Source: Rodentolepis nana (Eukaryota > Platyhelminthes > Cestoda > Cyclophyllidea > Hymenolepididae). From it: a stretch of DNA of 44,194 nucleotides. A model generated the notes under the pieces. The model searched no databases, was not told the DNA's origin, and worked only from the letters and a program-made list of their open reading frames with translations. The translations under genes were made by a program, and so were the position numbers. Positions 3,398 through 44,194 of this stretch are shown here, in pieces (position 1 is the first letter of the stretch; each line of letters begins with the position of its first letter). Location of the stretch: contig UZAE01012373.1 in assembly GCA_900617975.1 (NCBI GenBank), positions 1-44,194 of the forward strand, written 5' to 3'.

Positions 3398-3472
3398 TTT
3401 TAACTTGAAGTTGCGCACTAAGTAGGCCTGTTTTATATCAGTCTATTTAACAATTGTAGTTAACAATAATCA

Positions 3473-4091
3473 GGGTGTGCGATAGACTTACCTCCACGTG
3501 GTGCATCCTGGGCAACGTATATTCATCAGGCAAAAGTCAATTAACTGGCAGTTTGTGTGCGATAGACTTACCTCCACGTGGTGCACCCTGGGCAGCGTAT
3601 TTTCTTACGGCAAAAAAGTCTATCACTCGGCTTTCGTTATATTCATACGGCAAAAAGTCTATTAACTGGCAGTTAACTACGATAGACTTACCTCCACGTG
3701 GTGCACCCTGGGCAACGTACTTTCTTACGGCAAAAATTCTATCACTCGGCATTCGTTTTTCAATAGACTTACCTCCACGTGGTGCATCCTGGGCAACGTA
3801 TATTCATCAGGCAAAAGTCAATTAACTGGCAGTTGACTTCCCACTTCAAATTACCATCACCTCACTCTATGCCATATTCGACTATTCACTGTACTCACCT
3901 CACCTTTTTCTAACTTTTGTGTTCGTCTCTTTTACATCTTTGAAACACTCTTCTGTTCCCTCCCCCCCCCCCCCCCCCCTCTCGACTTTTTTTCAATTTA
4001 ATGTTCCTTCCCCTCTGTGAAGCCTGAAGTTAACTTAACCCCTAATGATAACCATCAAGACGCCTGCCATTTGATATAAATAAGTAAATAA
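3473..4091 (+). mobile_element. SINE copy with a tandem array of ribozyme heads
   Basis: Four head units start near 3473, 3555, 3680 and 3761, with an extra partial unit (P4-J4/2-P2') around 3640-3668. Units 2 and 3 end in the LINE-type sequence ATCACTCGGC; units 1 and 4 and the partial unit end in the SINE-type sequence TTAACTGGCAG. The last unit runs into a normal SINE body containing a long C run (3962-3979). It ends in the shared tail TGCCATTTGATATAAATAAG with an extended A/T tail to about 4091. Confidence 0.9.
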
Positions 4092-6132: not shown

Positions 6133-7020
6133 ACTGATTGGTATAAAGCAGAATATGCCAAACTGGATAAAGGCATTCATTGGACAAAGATCATGTAAAG
6201 TCAGATATGAAAATGCTCTATCAAAATCCAATCTTTTACAAACAAGCCTTCCACAGGGAACTGTCACAAGCTGCACTCTTTTCAATGTCTTCATCAATGA
6301 CATAGCTGAATTAGCACAGACAGTCACGGACATCAAGTGCTTGCTTTATACAGATGATCTTGTTCTATGGCATTGCACCCCTAAGAAAAACGCTCAGGAG
6401 AGGACAGAAAGTGCCCTAAATTGTGCACTTAAACTACTAGCAAACTGATGCGACAACAATGGAATGGTAATCAACACCGCGAAAACTGCATTCCAAACTT
6501 TTTCTTTGGCCCATCACAGCATGAACGCACTTCTAAGGTACAAGGACACTACCGTAGAAAAACCAATGAGTTCACATATCTCGGAATGACTTTTGACACA
6601 AAGCTAACGTGAGAAAGCCACATTGCTAAAATAGCAGAACGAGACTCTGGAGACTCTGAACTCTTCTCTTTCTACGCAGCACCCGGCTGGCCAAGAATCG
6701 AAGCCGTTTCTGAGTTTAGACTACTTACCGGACAAGATTGCCTGGCAAAACAGTTCACAGTTTAGGAGTATACACTCACCCTATGTAACCTACAGAAGAA
6801 AATAGAGAAGGCACACTTGATTCGGTGTCCATCCCTAAAGACAACGACGGAAAGCCAGAGATACTGGGAAGCCAGAAGACATCTAATGTACTGCTTTTAA
6901 TTAACTGTTATATTTGTACCCCCCCCCCTCCCCACCTATGGGGAAAACTGAAGTCATCCAGGGGCTAATGATAAATATCATAAAGCCTGCCATTTGAAAT
7001 AAATAAATAAATAAATAATA
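6133..7020 (+). mobile_element. 5'-truncated, internally deleted LINE copy
   Basis: The copy starts in the RT palm region. The frame at 6155-6448 shows the S-L-P-Q-G motif and a mutated catalytic box (Y-T-D-D where sister copies have Y-A-D-D). It is broken by stops after about 6446, jumps near 6650 to a short RNase H piece and then to the C-terminal end, which has a cysteine/histidine motif (C-N-L ... A-H-L-I-R-C-P). A C-rich 3' UTR leads to the shared 3' hairpin and an (AAAT)n tail (7001-7020). It sits between two parts of a Gypsy pol remnant. Confidence 0.88.
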
Positions 7021-14483: not shown

Positions 14484-17400
14484 ATGTTTCCACATTTTGA
14501 AGATTTTTTTCTACCACATTTTATTAATCCACCGGAAAGTTCATATGGCATGATAATCTCTATAAGATCAAATTTTATCCAAAGGTATTTTAAAATATTT
14601 TCTAAATACTGTAAATATAAACTTAAGGATAGCTCATTCTGGTCATGATGTTCTTATTAATGTTAGTGAACGTGGAAATAATAACCGAATAAGAAGAAGG
14701 TTGCAAGGAATTGATGCAAACATTCGGAGGCCGTGTACTCCTCCATTAACTTCTTCATATTCTCCAGCTTGTCGAGCTATTCATTGTATAAATTCTCTTC
14801 CTGTATCTACCATTTGGATTAAAAAGGAATTAATTAAAAAAGCTTCTCCAGCTTGGTATTTTGAAAGAACGCTTGATTTACGTTTTTGTTCACTGACGCT
14901 TCTAATAATACTATCATTATATTTCAGCAATTTGCCTGCTCCGGCCGAAAATTTGGAATCGATAAATGACTTTTTACATCAATACGATTTTTTTCCTGAT
15001 CGTAAATATGATCAAAAGCTGCGGACCTTGATACCCTCTCAACCAATTTCTATCAAAGGCGATGATCACAAACTGGAATGCAATATCTGCCTTTGTAAGT
15101 TATTTATTCTTCAAATAAATACATGAGCGATTGTTTAATTGCAAGTTCACGCTGACTATTATATAAAAATCAGTTTCTTGGGATTTGAATGAGGTACAAT
15201 CTAGTAGGTGTATCTATTACCCCTGCTGATTTAAATGTTCTATTCCTCATAGTTTTTCTTTAACATGGACTGGGTTCAAACAAAACCAGAGTACATGAAC
15301 TGTATAACGATAGTCAATTCGGTAGTTGAACTTATTTCATGCATAGTTTTTCAAATTTTTCAATTTAACATCTGCATTATAGTATATTCACTATGATAAT
15401 TCTGAAGACTTAATGCATTATTTGACTTGAGGTTGCGATTGTGAATATCGCATAATTTGACCCCTGTTATTTTTTTCTATTGGCGAACTGTGATTGGACA
15501 ATGATATTGGTGATGTAAAAAGTAAACGATGTTAGCAATGAAGTGGTTTGAAGTTAAGCTGATAATTTCTATTTGGGGGGGGGGTTAAAAATCAATAAAG
15601 TCGTCTTTAGTGAAAAAGGATAATTAAAGTATTAAATGTACACCACTACAGTCATAAAACGATGCATCTTTAAGCGTTTGTCTACACATTTTATGAGTAC
15701 ATAGCATAAGCCGCAGTGCACAGTGGAAGTAAGCCATAAACCGATCTAGCATGCGTGAACGTACTCGACTGTACATAGTCTGATACTACCGCAGAGCATA
15801 GGCCGATGGGAAAAGTGAGCCATGATTGAACAGTAAGAATTAATTAGATCAGAACAAATACTATGTTTTATGGTTCTTTATAAAGGTGAAGCGATGTTAC
15901 CATGCTCTCTATATGGTTGCTTCCTATCTTACTTAGCAATTTTCACATTTCTTGTTCATTAGTTCCGTCTTCAACAGTTTCATACCACTTTTGCTTTTCT
16001 CATACCTTACCTCATCTATGTGATGTGTCTTAATAAACATCTTTTTGGACTTCGTTGCCATCGACAATCAGTTGGAAACTTATTTTGTCACTTAATTACC
16101 TCTTCGTGTTTTGTTCACAAAGGTGACTACAGGACTGGACAAAAGGTACGCCATCTCCCCTGTGGTCACGTTTTCCATCGGGAGTGCGTTGACAAGTGGT
16201 TGGCCAACGCGGAGACGTGTCCCAAGTGTCGAAAACATGTGGTAAACGCTCTGCGCCTTCTACTTTCGAGTAAAGAAAGCCAAAGCACTCGTAGACGCTC
16301 GCAATCGAGCGTTAATTTACCATCGTCCTCGTTTTCATCGTCTGTACGTTCCAATTCTGTTTCCTTCAATAGGTCTTAAATGAAACCATAAATACATTTA
16401 GAAATGAACAAAACTTATTTATACTTGACACGTGATGGTCAAAATACGCATTAGCCAAGTCAGTGGTCTCGAAATGGATACTTACTGGTGCAGACACAGT
16501 GGTGTGGTAATAATGCCTAAAGCAATCTGCATCTCTGAAACCAATAATTAATAATGATGAATAAACGCATAAAGCAAATGCATGTTTAATATTTTTATAG
16601 ACATAGGTCACGAGCAAAGTTGCTATGTGACAATTAATGAATGTGTTAGAGTTTGAGAGTTAAATGATAAAGTTTAGTATTTTTGCTTAATAAAAATGCG
16701 AGCTGAAACTGGGTTAACGGCGAAGCTAGAGGTCAAGGGGTCGGTGATCACCAGTGCTTAGATATTGTACGCAATTTCAGACTGCACTAACTCTGGGTGG
16801 CTAGTAAAGAGAGTAGCAGTACCCGAGGTTTTCATAAGGTAGGCTCTATGATGCACAAATCCCATCACCCACTCATTGTGGCATTGATGTTGATATCTTC
16901 CTTTTTTCTTATATTTTATCAAAAAAAGATATTTACGTGTCTTTTTTGGTCATTTTTAGTGGCTGTATCTGTTTGTCTGTTTTAATAATCTGTTGCATCT
17001 CTTTCGCTTATTTTTTTGTATATTTATTATATATTGAATTCCTTATTTTTTTCTAAAGCAATTACAGAACATACAGCCTTCAGTGGTTGTGAAGCACAAT
17101 CGTGCAAGCATTCTGCGTCTTGAATTAGCGAGGAGTCGTCGTACAGCAAATACAGAATTTGAAAGAGCGATAAATTCAAATAGTACGACTCAGGCAAAAC
17201 TAAGAATAACCTCAAATATTCCTGAACAAATCCCAACTCACAGTGGAGAAACTCTTTCGGCTTCTAGTTCTATCGAACCTTCAGCTGGGGCAAACGAAGG
17301 CATTAGCATTTGTACTGACGATTTGCATTCTACGAATGACAAAGGAGATGAAATGTTAAATCACGAATCATCTGATGTAATGTGTGGAATTGCTTAAACT

Positions 17401-18255: not shown

Positions 18256-18273
18256 CTCCAGGAATTTTACTTA

Positions 18274-18581
18274 TTTCAAATGGCAGGCGTTTTGATAGTT
18301 ATAATCAGCCCTTTAGCTGGCTTCGGGCTTCACAGGGGGAAGAAACGTCAATGTAACAGAAATTCGAGAGGTGGGGAACAGAAAAGTGATTTACAGATGT
18401 AAAAGAGACAGACACAAAGTCAGAGAAAAGGTAGAATGAGTACTGTGGAAATGGTAGAATATGATATACAGTGGGGTGATGGTAGTCTGAAGTCGAGTGC
18501 CGGTTTATGGACTTTTTTGCCGTATGAATATACGTTGCCCAGGGTGCACCACGTGAAGGTAAGTCTATCGCACACCCCATC
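18274..18581 (-). mobile_element. complete SINE copy with TSD, reverse strand
   Basis: The minus-strand copy starts at G1 = 18578 (GGGGTGT) and ends with the shared 3' tail at 18274. It is flanked by CTCCAGGAATTTTACTTA (18256-18273) and CTCCAGGAATTACTTA (18582-18597), a TSD differing by a 2-nt indel. This shows that the element's 5' end really is the ribozyme G run. Confidence 0.92.
18506..18578 (-). ncRNA. HDV-like ribozyme fold (SINE head)
   Basis: Minus strand, 73 nt. P1 is GGGGTGT with GCACCCT (7 pairs with two G-U wobbles). P2 is GATAGACTT with AAGTCCATA (one mismatch). P3 is ACC with GGT around L3 TTCACGT. J1/4 is GGGCAA, P4 is CGTAT with ATACG, and J4/2 is GGCAAAA, holding the candidate catalytic C. 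Confidence 0.7.
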
Positions 18582-25019: not shown

Positions 25020-26100
25020 AAGGTGTGCACGATAGAGTAACCCTCACGTGGTACACCCTAGGCAACGTTTCTTCGTACGACAAAAAAAGTCTATCACTCG
25101 GCAATTTGACACAAAGCTAACATGGAAATATCACATTGTTAAAATAGTAGAACGAATCTCCAATAGACTGAATGACTGCTGGTAGCATATGGGGCTGAGC
25201 ACGCTCAACTCTCAACACCACTTACAAGATGTTTATTCAGCCAATAATGTTGTATTGCTGTGAGCCACTCATTACAGCCACTGAGGTCACTCTCAAACCA
25301 CTCGAGAGGGCACACAACCAAGCATTACGATTTATTACTGGAGGGATAAAATCAACACCCATTGATGCAATGCTCCTGGTTACAGGGAGCACCACAATGT
25401 GTTCCCTTATCAAAGAGAAGGTCTTGATCCTGTATGAGAAGCTACAGCACATTACCATGAACAAATTCTTCAGCATCTATGAGAATGGACCAAGACATCT
25501 GAAAACGCAATCTGGTCTAATATAGAAAGCCACAGAACTGAAGAAAACATTACAAATCGATGACAAACCAAAATGTCTCTCTCTACCCATGACCCTATTA
25601 GCAGACACTGATGTAGTGTGTTGCACACAACTGCTTGACCTCTTCAGGAAATCAAACACCCCTCCAGAATAGATGCGCTCACTGGCCCTTGAGACAATCA
25701 ATGTCAACTATCCTGCAAATCAATGGCTCCAAGTCTCCACTGATGGGTCTTACATAGAAAAGCAAGCAAATGTTGGTGCAGGTGTCTACTCTGAACACTT
25801 CTCTTTCTACGCAGCAGCGGGACACAATAGTATCGCTTTCGAAGGAGAAATAGAGGCCATTAGGATAACACTAGCCGATTATGTTGTCTGGATACGAGAT
25901 TCACAAAAGCGGTGATACTTTCGGACTCCCAGTCAACAATAAACTCAATTGCAAACAAAGAGCCCCTTATGACAGCTGAGATAAAGGAATGTAGAAAACT
26001 CAATCAGCTGCTGAGAGAGAAAAACAAAACAGTGGTCCTCTAATGGATTCCTGGTCACTGTGGCATTAAAGGCAATGAGCTTGCTGACACACTTGCTAAG
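25020..26100 (+). mobile_element. LINE copy: ribozyme head joined to RT interior
   Basis: A family head (25022-25103, LINE-type ending ATCACTCGGCA) is followed directly by sequence from the C-terminal part of the RT domain, so most of the endonuclease and RT is deleted. It continues through RNase H (frame near 25673-25915 with T-D-G-S and G-E-I-E-A-I motifs) to about 26100, where an N interrupts. Stops and an altered segment near 25870-25915 show it is not intact. 25105-25612 forms the left arm of an inverted repeat. Confidence 0.88.
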
Positions 26101-29995: not shown

Positions 29996-30330
29996 GAGGT
30001 GTGCGATAGACTTACCTCCACGTGGTGCACCCTGGGCAACGTATACTCATACGGCTAAAAGGTTTATTAACCGGCAGTCGACTTCTGACTTCAAACTACC
30101 ATCACCCCACTGTATGTCATATTCGACCCCTTCCACAGTGCTCACCTTACCTTTTCTCTGCCTTTATGTCTATCTCTCTGTCTGTCTTTTTACATCTGTG
30201 AATCTTTATTCTGTCCCCCCCCCCTCTCGACATTTTGTCACTTTGATGTTCCTTCTCCTCTCTGTGAAGCCCGAAGTCAGCTAAAGGGCTAATGATAAGT
30301 ATCAAAGAGCCTGCCATTTGAAATAAATAA
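29996..30330 (+). mobile_element. complete SINE copy with 12-bp TSD
   Basis: Flanked by ATGTACCAACAA at 29984-29995 and 30331-30342. The copy runs from a head that has lost two Gs to the tail TGCCATTTGAAATAAATAA. At 335 nt it is the clearest unexpanded copy and a good reference for the family. Confidence 0.95.
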
Positions 30331-31144: not shown

Positions 31145-31158
31145 TTAAAATCTACATT

Positions 31159-34100
31159 TTTTAAAAGGCAGGCTTTATGATATTTATCATAAGCCCTTTA
31201 GTTGAGTTCAGGCTTCACAGAGGGAGAGGAACATCAAATCGAAAAAAGTCGAGAGGGGGAGGAACAGAAGAGTGTTTTAAAGATGTAAGAGACAGACACA
31301 AAGGTAGATGAAAGGTGAGGTGAGTACTGCGGAAGTATTATTTTAAAGGGCAGGCTTTATAATATTTATCATTAGCCCTAAAACTTTGATTTCAGCTTCC
31401 CAACATGAGTGGGGGTACATATGTAGCAGTCAATTAAAAGAAGTTCAATACCTGTCTTCTTGCTTCCCAGTTTCTCGCGCTTTCCGTTGTTGTCTTTAGG
31501 GCTGGAAACCGAAACTGCTGGGTCTTTTCCTTTTACTCCTGTTGGTCACATAGGGGGCATGTGGATTGAATGTACACTCCCAATCTGTGAAGGTGTTTTG
31601 ACAGGCCATCGTGTCCGGTACCTAGTCAAAACTCAACAACGTCTTCGATTCTTGGCCAGTCGGATATGTCGGAGAGTGCCACTGACCACTGTTTCTCCTT
31701 TTTTCGAGCTTTAAGTTCTTTGCACCTTGAGGTCTTGAATTCTCTCCTGCTTAAAGCCTTCATTGTGTGGAAAGACATCGGCCGGTCTATGTTTGCAAAA
31801 TCGTTGTCCCCTTCTTAGCAAGTGTGTCAGCAAGCTCATTGCCTTTAATGCCACAGTGACAAGGAATCCATTATAGGACCACTGTTTTGTTTTTCTCTCT
31901 CAGCAGCTGATTGAGTTTTCTACATTCCTTTATCTCAGCTGTTTTGAGTGGTCCTGTTTTTCCAAATGAGTTTATTGCTGACTGTGGGTCCGACAGTATC
32001 ACCGCTTTGGTGAATTTCGCATCCATGCAACATAATTGGCATAGTGCCTTCCTAATGGCCTCTATTTCTCCTTCAAAAGCGGATCTATTGTGTCCCGCTG
32101 TTGCGTAGAAAGAGAAGTGTTCAGAGTAGACACCTGCACCAACGTTTGCTTGGTTTTCAATGTTAGACCCTTCTGTGAAGATTTGGAGCCAATGATCTGC
32201 AGGAAAGTTGATATTGATTGTCTCAAGGGCCAGTGAGCGCATCTATTCTGGAGGGGTGTTTGATTTCCTGAAGAGGTCAAGCAGTTGTTTGCAACACACT
32301 ACATCAGTGTCTGCTAATGGGTTCATGGGTAGAGAGAGGCTTTTTGGTTTGTCATCGATTTGTAATGTTTTCTTCAGTTCTGTGGCTTTCTATATTAGAC
32401 CAGATTGCGTTTTCAGATGTCTTGGTCCATTCTCATAGATGCTGAAGAATTTGTTCATGGTAATGTGCAGTAGCTTCTCATACAGGATCAAGACCTTCTC
32501 TTTGATAAGGGAACACATTGTGGTGCTCCCTGTAACCAGGAGCATTGCATCAATGGGTGTTGATTTTATCCCTCCAGTAATAAATCGTAATGCTTGGTTG
32601 TGTGCCCTCTCGAGTGGTTTGAGAGTGACCTCTGTGGCTGTAATGAGTGGCTTACAGAAATACAACATTATTGGCTGAATAAACATCTTGTAAGTGGTGT
32701 TGAGAGTTGAGCGTGCACAGCCCCATATGATACCATCAAGGCGCTTCAGTACATTCAGTCTATTGGAGAATCGTTCTGCTATTTTATCAATGTGACTTTT
32801 CCATGTTAGCTTTGTGCCAAACGTCATTTATATGGTAGTATATTTGTACCTTAGAAACAGGTTTTTGCTGTGACGGGCCAAAGAACATATTTGGAAAGCA
32901 GTTTTCGCGGTGTTGATTACCATTCCATTATTGTCGCACCAGTTTGCTAGTAGTTTAATTGCACAATTTAGGGCACTTTCTGTCCTCTCCTCGGCGTTTT
33001 TCTTAGGGGCGGAATACCATAGAACAAGATCATCTGCATAAAGTAAGCACTGGATGCCCCTGACTGTCTGCACTAATTCAGCTATGTCATTGTTGAAGAC
33101 ATTGAAAAGAGTGCAACTTGTGACAACTCCCTGTGGATGGCCTGATTGCAAAAGGTTGGATTTTGATAGAGTATTTCCATATCTGACTTTACGTGATCTT
33201 TGTCAAATGAATGCTTTTATCCAGTTTAGCATGTTATGCTTAATACCAATCTTTGCCAATTTTAGAATTAGCTTCTCTTTCCATACTAAGTCATATGCTG
33301 ATTTGAAATCGACGAAAACAGCCGTAAGAGTATTTCTTGCATCAATGACATCTTTGATATGTTGGGAGAAAGTGGCTACTTGTTGGTTCGTTGATCATTG
33401 TGACCTAAAAACTGCTTGTTCATTGATAATAATATTGTTGGTCTCAAGGAACCAGGTCAGCCTCCTGTTAACCATTCTTTCCATAAGTTTAGCCAGCACG
33501 CTTGTGTGGGAGATAGGAGTAAAGTTGAGGGGACTTGTGTCAAGTTCATTCTCTAAAAGGTTTGTGAATCTAGGCCAGAACCAGGATCGTCAGTTATTTT
33601 TCGGTGCGTATGCTCGCTGATGTCGCTTGAAGCCAGGAGGAAGTCAGGAATTGTTCTGGTTCCATTGTAGTGCTGATACGTAGCAGGATCCTCATTGGTA
33701 TAAATAAGTTCCAGAGGGTTGCTGTTTAGCATGTCTTCGATTTCCTTTCCAGCTATGTTTGTATCCTTATAGCCCCATCTAGTGGAATGGGCGTTGAAGT
33801 CTCTTAATACTACAGTTTTTTGTGTGATGTTCGGAAGATCAAAGTTGGGACTGTTCGGGGGTGTAGTATAGATTGTATATATCTTGAAGTGGTTTTGAAA
33901 TTTTCAAACATTTAATCTGTTTATTTCCCACTTGTTTTGCATCGAGCCCATACTCTTGATTAGATCGTAATGTGATGTGAGGCCATCTTTTACTCCATTC
34001 AGAATTCCACTTGCAACTTGCGGTATTTATGTAGAAGGTACAGGGTGTAACCTGGGAATTGGTAATAGTTCAGTTTGACATCCGAAAGGTTTGCTTCCAT

Positions 34101-34361
34101 AATTGTGAAAATGTCTACATCATAGGTTTGTAGGATTTTCTGTACTTGGATCTTTTTGTCCTGTGACATCCCTCCAACATTCCACTGAAGGATCTGTAGA
34201 CGTTGTGATTCGCCCTGACGAGGGCAATTTCTCTTATAGCTTTGGTTCAAGCTAATCATAATAAATAGAAGTCAGATCAAATGCCGAGTGATAGATTTTT
34301 TGCCGTATGAAGATACATTGTCCAGGGTGTACCACGTGGAGGTAGGTCTATGGCGCGCCCC
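31159..34361 (-). mobile_element. near full-length LINE fused to a SINE 3' end, one TSD
   Basis: Read leftward. The 5' end (34361) is the ribozyme head, partly decayed. The ORF starts at ATG 34259 with an AP endonuclease N-terminus (Q-W-N-V-G-G-M). At about 33720-33840 lies the endonuclease motif D-F-N-A-H-S ... W-G. RT follows (32828-33151 with Y-A-D-D-L-V-L-W; 32390-32827), then RNase H (31871-32242, G-E-I-E-A-I ... I-L-S-D), the C-terminal end and the 3' UTR to about 31344. The SINE 3' half (31338-31159) comes next. TTAAAATCTACATT (31145-31158) and TTAAAATCTAAATT (34362-34375) flank the whole unit. LINEs of this type nick target DNA, prime reverse transcription there and use RNase H to remove RNA. 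Stops and frameshifts make this copy inactive. Domain order, one ORF and RNase H suggest the I/Ingi-like group; the clade is inference. Confidence 0.9.
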
Positions 34362-34375
34362 TTAAAATCTAAATT

Positions 34376-38239: not shown

Positions 38240-38881
38240 TACTATTCCCGCCTGATCTTCCCAAAATGAACAAAATATCACTAATATTTTGTTAGTCATG
38301 AATTAATTTTACCAAATTTAAAATTACAGAAGCTTAAGGCTCTAACATGATAGATAATTTAGTAACGATGATAATGTAATGTGACCCAGCAGATAGATTT
38401 GAACCAACCAATGACATGGGTTCATTGATCATTTGTAAGGAGTCGACTATGATGGAGTATTTCTAACTCCCTAAATGAAAACGCCGAGTTTGGCCAGGTG
38501 ATTGCTTGGTAGCTAAGCCCAGTAGAGTGAATAATTAATGAATAATCAGTAGAATTGAGAAAACTTGACAGTTGGAATGTAAAATATCTTGGAAACAAAG
38601 AAGTGTAAGTTTGAGAATAAGGAATTTCCTGCGACCTCCTAACCGATTCAAAATTGACTTCGTGATATAACATTGCCACCAAATGCAATGCTCATCGCAT
38701 TGACCTATTAATTACAAATACAGAAATATACATACATTTCGGCACAGAACAACCAAATAACTACCTAGTGAAGGTTGTGTGAAGAAAAGTTTTTCCCATT
38801 ATGTATTTTGATGCTTGGGGTTAGGAACTTATCGATTCGAGAAACCGTCTCAGATACATTCAATAGCACTGTATATTCACT

Positions 38882-38887
<6 letters not shown>
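38240..38887. other. intergenic, nothing recognised
   Basis: An open frame at 38422-38688 (minus) was read and has no domain. No repeat family was recognised. Confidence 0.4.

Positions 38888-38918
<31 letters not shown>
38888..38918. repeat. (TA)n microsatellite
   Basis: About 15 TA units directly abut the 3' truncation point of the LINE copy that follows, so the insertion or a deletion ended in this run. Confidence 0.95.
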
Positions 38919-38920
<2 letters not shown>

Positions 38921-40149
38921 AGACAACATAATTGGCATAGTGCTATCCTAATGGTCTCTATTTCTCCTTCGATAGCGGATCTATTGTGTCCCGCTACTGC
39001 GTAGAAAAAGAAGAGTTCAAAGAAGACACCTGCACCAATGTTTGCTTGGTTTTCTATGTACGACAGATCAGTGAAGACTTGGAACCATTGATCTGCAGGA
39101 TAGTTGACATTGATTGCCTCAAGGGCCAGTGAGCTCATCTGTTCTGGAGGGGTGTTTGATTTCCTGAAGAGGTCAAGCAGTTGTTTGCAACACACTACAT
39201 CAGTGTCTGCTAATGGGTTCATGGGTAGAGAGAGGCTTTTTGGTTTGTCATCGATTTGTAATGTTTTCTTCAGTTCTGTGGCTTTCTATATTAGACAAGA
39301 TTGCGTTTTCAGATGTCTTGGTCCATTCTCATAGATGCTGAAGAATTTGTTCATGGTAATGTGCAGTAGCTTCTCATACAGGATCAAGACCTTCTCTTTG
39401 ATAAGGGAACACATTGTGGTGCTCCCTGTAACCAGGAGCATTGCATCAATGGGTGTTGATTTTATCCCTCCAGTAATAAATCGTAATGCTTGGTTGTGTG
39501 CCCTCTCGAGTGGTTTGAGAGTGACCTCAGTGGCTGTAATGAGTGGCTTACAGAAATACAACATTATTGGCTGAATAAACATCTTGTAAGTGGTGTTGAG
39601 AGTTGAGTGTGCACAGCCCCATATGCTACCATCAAGACGCTTCAGTACGTTCAGTCTATTGGAGATTCGTTCTGCTATTTTAACAATGTGATATTTCCAT
39701 GTTAGCTTTGTGCCAAACGTCATTTATATGGTAGTATATTTGTACCTTAGAAACAGGTTTTTGCTGTGACGGGCCAAAGAACATATTTGGAAAGCAGTTT
39801 TCGCGGTGTTGATTACCATTCCATTATTGTCGCACCAGTATGTTAGTAGTTTAAGTGCACAATTTAGGACACTTTCTGTCCTGTCCTCAGCATTTTTCTT
39901 AATAGCGGAATACCATAGAACAAGATCATCTGCATAAATTAAGCACTGGATGCCCCTGACTGTCTGCACTAATTCAGCTATGTCATTGATGAAGACATTG
40001 AAAAGAGTGCAACTTGTGACAACTCCCTGTGGATGGCCTGATTGCGAAAGGTTGGATTTTGATAGAGTATTTCCATATCTGACTTTACGTGATCTTTGTC
40101 AAATGAATGCTTTTATCCAGTTTAGCATGTTATGCTTAATACCAATCTT
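38919..40149 (-). mobile_element. LINE copy, RT to RNase H, truncated both ends
   Basis: Read leftward from the N at 40150. It includes the RT region with Y-A-D-D-L-V-L-W (39724-39969), the RT C-terminal part (39286-39723) and RNase H (38919-39222). It is closely similar to the 31-34 kb copy over the shared part. The 5' end is lost at an N, and the 3' end stops at the (TA)n run. Confidence 0.9.
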
Positions 40150-40621: not shown

Positions 40622-41016
40622 GGGTGTGCGATAGATTTAACTTCACGTGATGCACCCTGGCCAACGATACTCATACAGTAAGAAAGCCTATTAACCGGCA
40701 GTTGACTTCGGACTTCAAACTACCACCATCCCACTGTGCGCCATATCCGACTACTTTCACAGTACTCACCTTACCTTCTACTCTATCTTTGTGTCTGTCT
40801 CCTTTATATCTTTGAAATACTCTCCTGTTCCCCCCCCCCTCGACTTTTTTCACTTTGATATTTCTTCCCCTCTATCAACTTTTTCTCACTTTGATGTTCC
40901 TCCTCCCTGTGAAAATTTTTTTCACTTTGATATTTCTTCCCCTCTATGAAGCCTGAAGTCAACTAAAGGGTTAATGATAACTATCAAAACGCCTGCCATT
41001 TGAGATAAATAAATAA
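40622..41016 (+). mobile_element. complete SINE copy with 13-bp TSD
   Basis: ATGATGTTATCAT at 40609-40621 and 41017-41029 flanks the copy. The head starts at GGGTGTGC and J1/4 reads CTGGCC. The 3' part has a threefold tandem expansion of a TTTCACTTTGATATTTCTTC-like unit (about 40845-40950). The tail is TTTGAGATAAATAAATAA. Confidence 0.94.
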
Positions 41017-42701: not shown

Positions 42702-42732
42702 CTATTTTACGAAACATTTTAGTTCCATTAGG

Positions 42733-43141
42733 GGGGGGGGGGGGGGTGTGCGATAGACTTACCTCCACGTGGTGCACCCTGGGCAACGTATACTCATACG
42801 GCAAAAAAGTCTATTAATCGACAGTTCACTTCTGACTTCAAACTACCATCACCCCACTGTGTGCCATATTCGGCTAATTTCACAGTACTCACCTCACCTA
42901 ATTTCTACCTTTGTGTCTGTCTGACTCTTTTACGTCTGTGAATCATTATTCTGTCCCCCCTCTCGGTACGTCTGTGAATCATTATTCTGTCCCCCTCTCG
43001 ACTTTTAACGTCTGTGAATCATTATTCTGTCCCCCCTCTCGACTTTTTGCCACTTTGATGTTCCTCTTTCTTTCTGTGAAGCCCGAAGTCAGCTAAAGGG
43101 CTAATGATACCTATCATAACGCCTGCCATTTGAAATACATA
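42733..43141 (+). mobile_element. complete SINE copy with 13-bp TSD and 5' G run
   Basis: TAGTTCCATTAGG at 42720-42732 and 43142-43154 flanks the copy. The 5' end has about 10 extra Gs ahead of the ribozyme. The body contains three tandem units of a GTCTGTGAATCATTATTCTG segment (about 42930-43045). The 3' end is TGCCATTTGAAATACA with little tail. Confidence 0.94.
42743..42815 (+). ncRNA. best-preserved HDV-like ribozyme fold (SINE head)
   Basis: 73 nt, with G1 at 42743. P1: 42743-42749 with 42774-42780 (7 pairs, including G1-U and U7-G wobbles). P2: 42752-42760 with 42807-42815 (9 pairs, one wobble). P3: 42761-42763 with 42771-42773. L3: TCCACGT, whose CC can pair with GG of J1/4 (GGGCAA, 42781-42786) as P1.1. 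P4: 42787-42791 with 42796-42800. J4/2 is GCAAAA, with the candidate catalytic C at 42802. HDV has the closely similar L3 UCCUCGC and J1/4 GGGCAA. Self-cleavage would free the 5' end exactly at the element's first base. Confidence 0.75.
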
Positions 43142-43154
43142 TAGTTCCATTAGG

Positions 43155-43908: not shown

Positions 43909-44194
43909 CTTCAAATGGCATGCGTTTTGATAGTTAGCATTATTCCTTTAGCTGACGTCAGGCTTCGCAGAGGAAAGAACATCAAAGTAACAGAAAGTCG
44001 AGGAAAGGGGGAAGAGAAGAGTGATTCACAGATGAAGAGAAAAAGGTGGGGCAAGATGAGTACTGTGGAAGTGACCGAATATGACATACAATGGAGTCAT
44101 GGTAGTTTGAAGTCAGAAGTTAACTGCCGGTTTATAGATTTTTTCGCCATATGTGCATACGTTGCCCAGGGTGCACCTCGTGGAGGTAAGTCTA
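43909..44194 (-). mobile_element. SINE copy, reverse strand, cut by window end
   Basis: Runs leftward from inside the head at 44194 to the 3' tail at 43909. P4 (CGTAT-type stem) is damaged, while L3 and J1/4 are kept. The first ~10 nt, including P1, lie beyond the window. Confidence 0.92.

Follow-up and report, generated by a model that had tools for sequence, protein, structure and literature searches.

A probable self-cleaving ribozyme of the HDV type opens a LINE and its short non-autonomous partner in the flatworm Rodentolepis nana

The DNA analysed here, hereafter called the window, covers positions 1 to 44,194 of contig UZAE01012373.1 (assembly GCA_900617975.1) of the cestode Rodentolepis nana. 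The host's COX1 gene agrees with a flatworm: read as a mitochondrial protein, it has several positions at which AAA seems to encode Asn and ATA Ile, as in the flatworm mitochondrial code. Nucleotides 42743-42815 of its forward strand very probably form a self-cleaving ribozyme of the HDV type, cleavage being predicted from the fold, and this ribozyme opens a retrotransposon family made of an autonomous LINE and a non-autonomous partner that keeps its 5' end and its 3' tail.

Reading the sequence directly and applying a structural descriptor, we recovered every helix of the full HDV double pseudoknot named by the initial annotation, in the same register. P1 pairs GGGGUGU (42743-42749) with GCACCCU (42774-42780) through seven standard pairs out of seven, and cleavage is predicted to leave its first base, G1 (42743), at the 5' end of the RNA. 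P2, which forms the pseudoknot with P1, joins GAUAGACUU (42752-42760) to AAGUCUAUU (42807-42815) with nine pairs out of nine, J1/2 being 2 nt long. P3 and its loop occupy 42761-42773, where ACC (42761-42763) pairs with GGU (42771-42773) and closes loop L3, UCCACGU; two cytosines of this loop, C42765 and C42766, pair with G42781 and G42782, directly after P1, to form P1.1. The P4 hairpin (42787-42800) has five base pairs, CGUAU (42787-42791) with AUACG (42796-42800), and a 4-nt loop. Finally, J4/2 (GCAAAA, 42801-42806) carries at its second position a cytosine, C42802, in the place occupied by the catalytic cytosine of HDV. When all these elements are imposed together (P1 7/7, P3 3/3, a GG for P1.1, 3 bp or more in P4, a C in J4/2, and 6 bp or more in P2), the only site in the window is the focal copy at 42743 on the forward strand, while 40 dinucleotide shuffles of the window, searched on both strands, gave three sites in total (a mean of 0.075 per shuffle).

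The HDV identity also holds against curated covariance models. In an Rfam cmscan of the window, RF02682 exceeds its gathering threshold at the focal site (42745-42814; 44.5 bits, E = 3.9e-5) and at 29998-30067 (46.4 bits, E = 1.5e-5), and comes just under it at 18507-18576 (42.3 bits); weaker matches lie at 3554-3623, 3474-3541, 34290-34361, 3676-3743, 44134-44194 and 25020-25094. The model of the HDV genomic and antigenomic ribozymes, RF00094, stays below its gathering value of 50 at the focal site (34.8 bits, E = 0.19), and its match, at 42743-42814, begins at the G1 of the initial annotation. RF02682 places P1 of the focal copy 2 nt further downstream, with one mismatch, which would put the end of the element at +2. 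We favour G1 over this shifted P1 because target-site duplications end there; at locus L079, the RF02682 alignment itself begins at G1. Genome-wide, 37 of the 59 RF02682 matches listed are over the cut-off, the best at 54.5 bits (61 scored of 25212 first-look candidates). The threshold is passed by 9 of 20 short-element loci (taken from the 40 loci L061-L100) and by one match in 20 LINE regions picked by reverse transcriptase similarity, and no match was found in 14 control genomes, of which the eight named are prokaryotes. The possibility that the best-scoring genome copies represent a second ribozyme family was rejected, as the 20 copies fetched resemble the same family.

A family model was built from 29 copies, namely the 32 listed minus three truncated ones and L004:2936-3007, plus the focal copy. 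With this model, 20 matches were detected in the window (E <= 0.1), among them one truncated where the window stops and one of marginal strength. Many copies had initially been said to fold, a wording that was too strong, since the strict descriptor is passed by only one of the 20, the focal copy, and most window copies are damaged. Near-identical copies also exist: all 40 copies scored are 97-100% alike over ~84-88 nt. In a set of 33 copies with resolved duplications, position 60, the J4/2 cytosine, is a C in 32, and P1 has all seven pairs in 25 and six of seven in the other eight. A point against the ribozyme is that the copies at 29996, L088 and L032, whose duplications are exact, have a GAGG variant (position 2) that disrupts the second pair of P1.

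In the window, the focal ribozyme heads a non-autonomous, SINE/SIDE-like element (42743-43141, forward strand), whose sequence is common to other copies up to ~43141 and which is bounded by a 13-nt target-site duplication, TAGTTCCATTAGG, at 42720-42732 and 43142-43154 on the same strand. The left copy of this duplication ends in GG and is followed by ten extra G before G1, so that a run of 16 G spans 42731-42746. This run may stem from slippage at the 5' junction or from nucleotides added there without a template. Runs of G similarly precede G1 in L016 and at window position 955, where no duplication is resolved. Three further non-autonomous copies were delimited: 29996-30330 (forward strand; Rfam 46.4 bits), with a 12-nt duplication, ATGTACCAACAA, ending exactly at G1; 18267-18578 (reverse strand; Rfam 42.3 bits), with an 11-nt duplication; and 40622-41016 (forward strand), whose 13-nt duplication extends over the G1 position, occupied here by a T. 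These elements are ~0.31-0.40 kb long and have in common with the LINE mainly their first ~72-97 nt and their last ~40-67 nt. By its layout, the partner resembles a short, internally deleted element; a search for a tRNA-derived SINE head with ARAGORN found no tRNA in the window.

The LINE itself is present in the window at 31155-34361 on the reverse strand. This copy has a broken frame, starts with the same ribozyme (from 34361 downwards) and ends with the same 3' tail. It is 3.2 kb long, as against 4.07 kb for the copy at L044. Its ribozyme (34286-34361, reverse strand) is damaged, scoring 84.2 bits with the family model R1 and remaining under the Rfam gathering threshold, and a 10-nt target-site duplication, TAGATTTTAA, adjoins G1 at 34362-34371 on the reverse strand, with its partner directly after the tail at 31145-31154. 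Reverse-strand pieces of reverse transcriptase (32831-33202, PF00078) and RNase H (31874-32242, PF00075) lie within it, the latter under the curated cut-off here and over it in the copy at L059. Endonuclease (PF14529), reverse transcriptase (PF00078) and RNase H (PF00075) were found in pieces from several genome LINE copies, and none of the 20 regions listed holds an intact full-length LINE frame. Matches in the PDB are LINE-1 and R2-type proteins, and the LINE reverse transcriptase gave 155 matches (150 scored of 644 first-look candidates). A search of viral contigs for relatives gave one weak reverse transcriptase match (33% identity across residues 270-322), to which we attach no weight, and the exact core of the ribozyme was absent from them. 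In the window, this LINE reverse transcriptase is also represented by fragments at 38860-40098 (reverse strand) and 6185-6556 (forward strand). The window also contains a homeodomain exon (PF00046; 34870-35415, forward strand) beside the LINE copy, and two stretches coding for RING fingers (1530-2069 and 15963-16376, both forward strand).

According to the initial annotation, the ribozyme heads a LINE/SINE family, and LINE anatomy bears this out. An endonuclease match, EN1, was detected in 7 of 21 regions (20 loci plus the window LINE), and six of these seven carry ribozyme sequence upstream of the endonuclease in the same orientation (as fragments only in L049), the upstream part of the seventh, L056, being N. 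Two other regions, L050 and L058, show an EN2 match without EN1 or ribozyme, and L050 starts at a contig end. When compared with three short elements, all nine LINE stretches have the 3' tail in common with them, over up to 67 nt, and each of the four that reach a 5' end shares at best the first ~72-97 nt of the short element; the window LINE also matches the middle of the short element, near the LINE 3' end. The five LINE copies with both a 5' end and a tail range from 0.5 to 4.1 kb, and internal deletions seem to be common among LINE copies.

Target-site duplications provide good evidence that the end of the ribozyme is the end of the element. For each copy, we took the longest exact repeat between a segment comprising the 45 nt before G1 and the 6 nt after it and the region past position 200. 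Hits starting within the first four model positions were kept, one of 79 being set aside for its short flanks, and copies identical in their first 200 nt or at their junction were collapsed (L085 is absent for this reason), leaving 78 copies. The 40 loci L061-L100 had been selected as top matches of ribozyme queries, which biases the sample towards copies in good condition. A direct repeat of at least 9 nt was found in 43 of the 78 copies, and none in the other 35. The repeat ends exactly at G1 in 22 of these 43 copies and within 1 nt of it in 28; three end one nucleotide before G1, three one nucleotide after, two at two nucleotides after (in one of these, a copy from an array, the repeat is internal, 47 nt long and no duplication) and 13 elsewhere. 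By comparison, 390 mismatched pairings of flanks gave 42 repeats of at least 9 nt, none of them ending at G1, which corresponds to a chance expectation of about 8 of the 78 copies. Among LINE copies, a repeat ends exactly at G1 in two of five, measuring 10 nt in the window copy at 34361 and 11 nt in L057, a count taken without a shuffled control, and the three others, including L106, which is cut at its 3' end, show no repeat of at least 8 nt.

The position 18578 had initially been given as an element end defined by target-site duplications, and the 11-nt repeat of that copy in fact stops 3 nt short of G1; the exact junction is that of the 29996 copy instead. The copies at 2813, 29423 and 37513 do start at G1 by alignment, but no repeat of at least 9 nt was found for them. 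The set of 33 copies already mentioned, with repeats of 10-39 nt ending between -7 and +2, includes L085 and leaves the focal copy (-10) outside. It reveals a target-site preference of the form ~TT/AT, with a T at -1 in 23 of 33 copies and an A at +1 in 25. Extra bases precede G1 in eight of the 33, never as G only, and the focal copy is the sole one in which a resolved filler before G1 is a run of G.

Covariation, whose absence the initial annotation had named as a ground for refutation, was examined as well. Among 28 distinct copies of this one family, 88.0% of cells are paired, versus 88.2% after shuffling, with a single two-sided change, so the check gives no support. Such a count cannot test selection on pairs, because the rows are copies of one family decaying independently after insertion, and the result is therefore not decisive; a fold without function would likewise show no covariation. 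The one signal specific to the structure is that sliding it along the alignment lowers pairing from 88% to 34-49%, as expected if the structure was read off one of the sequences. A pattern allowing P4 variants has 6876 matches in the genome (0 for the reversed-pattern control), and the 100 places shown of these 6876 include no double change and hence carry no covariation information.

The family is abundant. A 27-nt core of the ribozyme, GACTTACCTCCACGTGGTGCACCCTGG, has 5018 exact copies in the 107 Mb assembly, a count that includes array units which are possibly artefacts, whereas the backward pattern has 0; the copies are distributed between strands as 2550 and 2468 (p = 0.25). Apparent tandem arrays, in which ribozyme units and half units of 40 nt succeed one another, occur in the window (3472-3849) and at L049, L054, L057, L101-L106 and L108-L127. 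We considered these arrays as a biological feature comparable to the doubled Pr77 of SIDER2 and rejected this interpretation, as near-identical units follow one another in the same order between unrelated flanks; the second unit is the same letter for letter in 19 of 20 loci, L110 being different. One junction pattern occurs 52 times forward and 9 times in reverse relative to the scaffolds (p = 1.8e-8), and another 10 and 3 times. Because of this strand bias, and in an assembly that holds stretches of N, gap filling likely lies behind the apparent arrays, which suggests that they are artefactual in part. Strand balance is no clean control, however, because matches of the P4 pattern also divide slightly unevenly between strands (3258 and 3618; p = 1.5e-5). 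A duplication at, or one base before, the first G1 was found in 2 of 20 array copies (12 nt in L117 and 14 nt in L127).

In the course of events that we infer, the element would be transcribed along with surrounding host sequence, or from a promoter that has escaped notice. The ribozyme would fold and cut just before G1, releasing an RNA whose 5' terminus is exactly defined. The LINE protein would then bind the freed RNA, that of the short element included, by its 3' tail and nick the target at ~TT/AT, and reverse transcription running to G1 would create new copies that start at G1 behind a duplication of ~9-16 bp.

A fixed transcription start would equally give an exact 5' end, and G1 could then be where transcription begins under an internal promoter contained within the first ~75 nt, with the HDV-like fold a relic or serving some second purpose. 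Some non-LTR retrotransposons do have an internal promoter at their 5' end, within the ribozyme stretch itself in L1Tc, as described in parts of one report (PMC4035085). The G runs that precede G1 also fit this explanation; the focal copy has one, as do L016 and window position 955, where no duplication is resolved. Reverse-transcribed capped RNA frequently gains a G, yet none of the eight copies of 33 with extra bases before G1 has G only, and the one resolved G-run filler is that of the focal copy. Moreover, a start site leaves unexplained why an independent HDV covariance model matches with its P1 at that very end. We thus consider this explanation unlikely, and as Pr77 of trypanosomatids is both promoter and ribozyme, a promoter may add to the ribozyme rather than replace it.

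Less likely still is that the ribozyme was active in an ancestor and that present copies, the focal one included, are inactive and merely inherited the fold. The lack of covariation and the single pass of the strict descriptor among 20 window matches would be expected of such fossils; near-identical copies, intact helices and exact duplications point instead to recent amplification with the ribozyme intact, and inactivity of the focal copy would leave the reading of the family unchanged. That the likeness to HDV is fortuitous, and the 5' end of the repeat lies there by coincidence, is the least credible explanation and can hardly be entertained. At 0.075 hits per shuffled window, the descriptor alone is not overwhelming, but chance would also have to account for the Rfam E values of 1.5e-5 and 3.9e-5, for scores of up to 54.5 bits elsewhere among the matches listed, for the coincidence of the fold with the element end, and for its presence in both the LINE and its partner.

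An HDV-type ribozyme heading both a LINE and a short partner is of a known kind, exemplified by L1Tc/NARTc and by the R2 SIDEs. A close parallel is that with the L1Tc/ingi elements, LINEs with endonuclease, reverse transcriptase and RNase H that start with a 77-nt ribozyme, and with their short partners, which keep this ribozyme (passages of PMC4035085). As in L1Tc/ingi and NARTc/RIME/SIDER, an HDV-like ribozyme of ~75 nt (Pr77 in those elements) opens a LINE with AP endonuclease, reverse transcriptase and RNase H, and, as in NARTc/RIME/SIDER, a short internally deleted partner flanked by target-site duplications retains the 5' ribozyme and the 3' end (same source); the host, however, is here a flatworm and not a trypanosomatid. 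Similarly, the SIDEs of Drosophila R2, like the R2/R1 hybrid ones, are short non-autonomous elements that combine a 5' HDV-like ribozyme with the 3' end of the autonomous element (sections of PMC3414825).

HDV-like ribozymes in R2 and other LINEs are also mentioned in part of a further article (PMC7761336). The most conserved part of the R2Dm 5' region, as given in an excerpt of PMC5035012, is CCUCCUCGUGG, where the flatworm family has CCUCCACGUGG. In hybrid SIDEs, an A replaces a conserved U in the catalytic region (PMC3414825), and this position may be the one that distinguishes CCUCCUCGUGG from CCUCCACGUGG. Unlike in Drosophila R2, where J1/2 is large, J1/2 is 2 nt long here. R2 inserts in 28S rRNA genes by means of a restriction-like endonuclease; the flatworm LINE departs from R2 in both respects, as its endonuclease matches PF14529 and its insertion sites are dispersed with a TT/AT preference. 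The best-matching Rfam model, RF02682, describes the ribozyme of Faecalibacterium prausnitzii, which has the same P1-P3-P4 layout and similar L3, J1/4 and J4/2 but, unlike the flatworm family, is bacterial, and to our knowledge it is not known as part of a retrotransposon. The fold is also that of the HDV genomic and antigenomic ribozymes (RF00094), which implies no relation to delta viruses.

The family bears on how often the combination of a LINE with a ribozyme arose. As a tentative and rather improbable scenario, the ribozyme may have been inherited with the reverse transcriptase, an animal LINE with endonuclease, reverse transcriptase and RNase H descending with L1Tc/ingi from one ancestor headed by an HDV-like ribozyme, and in this flatworm lineage thousands of copies may later have come to cut the host transcripts that contain them. 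A large flatworm family would join the retrotransposons in which a ribozyme of the HDV type defines the 5' end, and many of its copies, of the LINE and of the short partner alike, begin at the base that the ribozyme would expose. With 5018 core copies in 107 Mb, array units included, R. nana would be a natural system in which to test how a genome copes when its transcripts contain thousands of sites at which they could potentially cut themselves.
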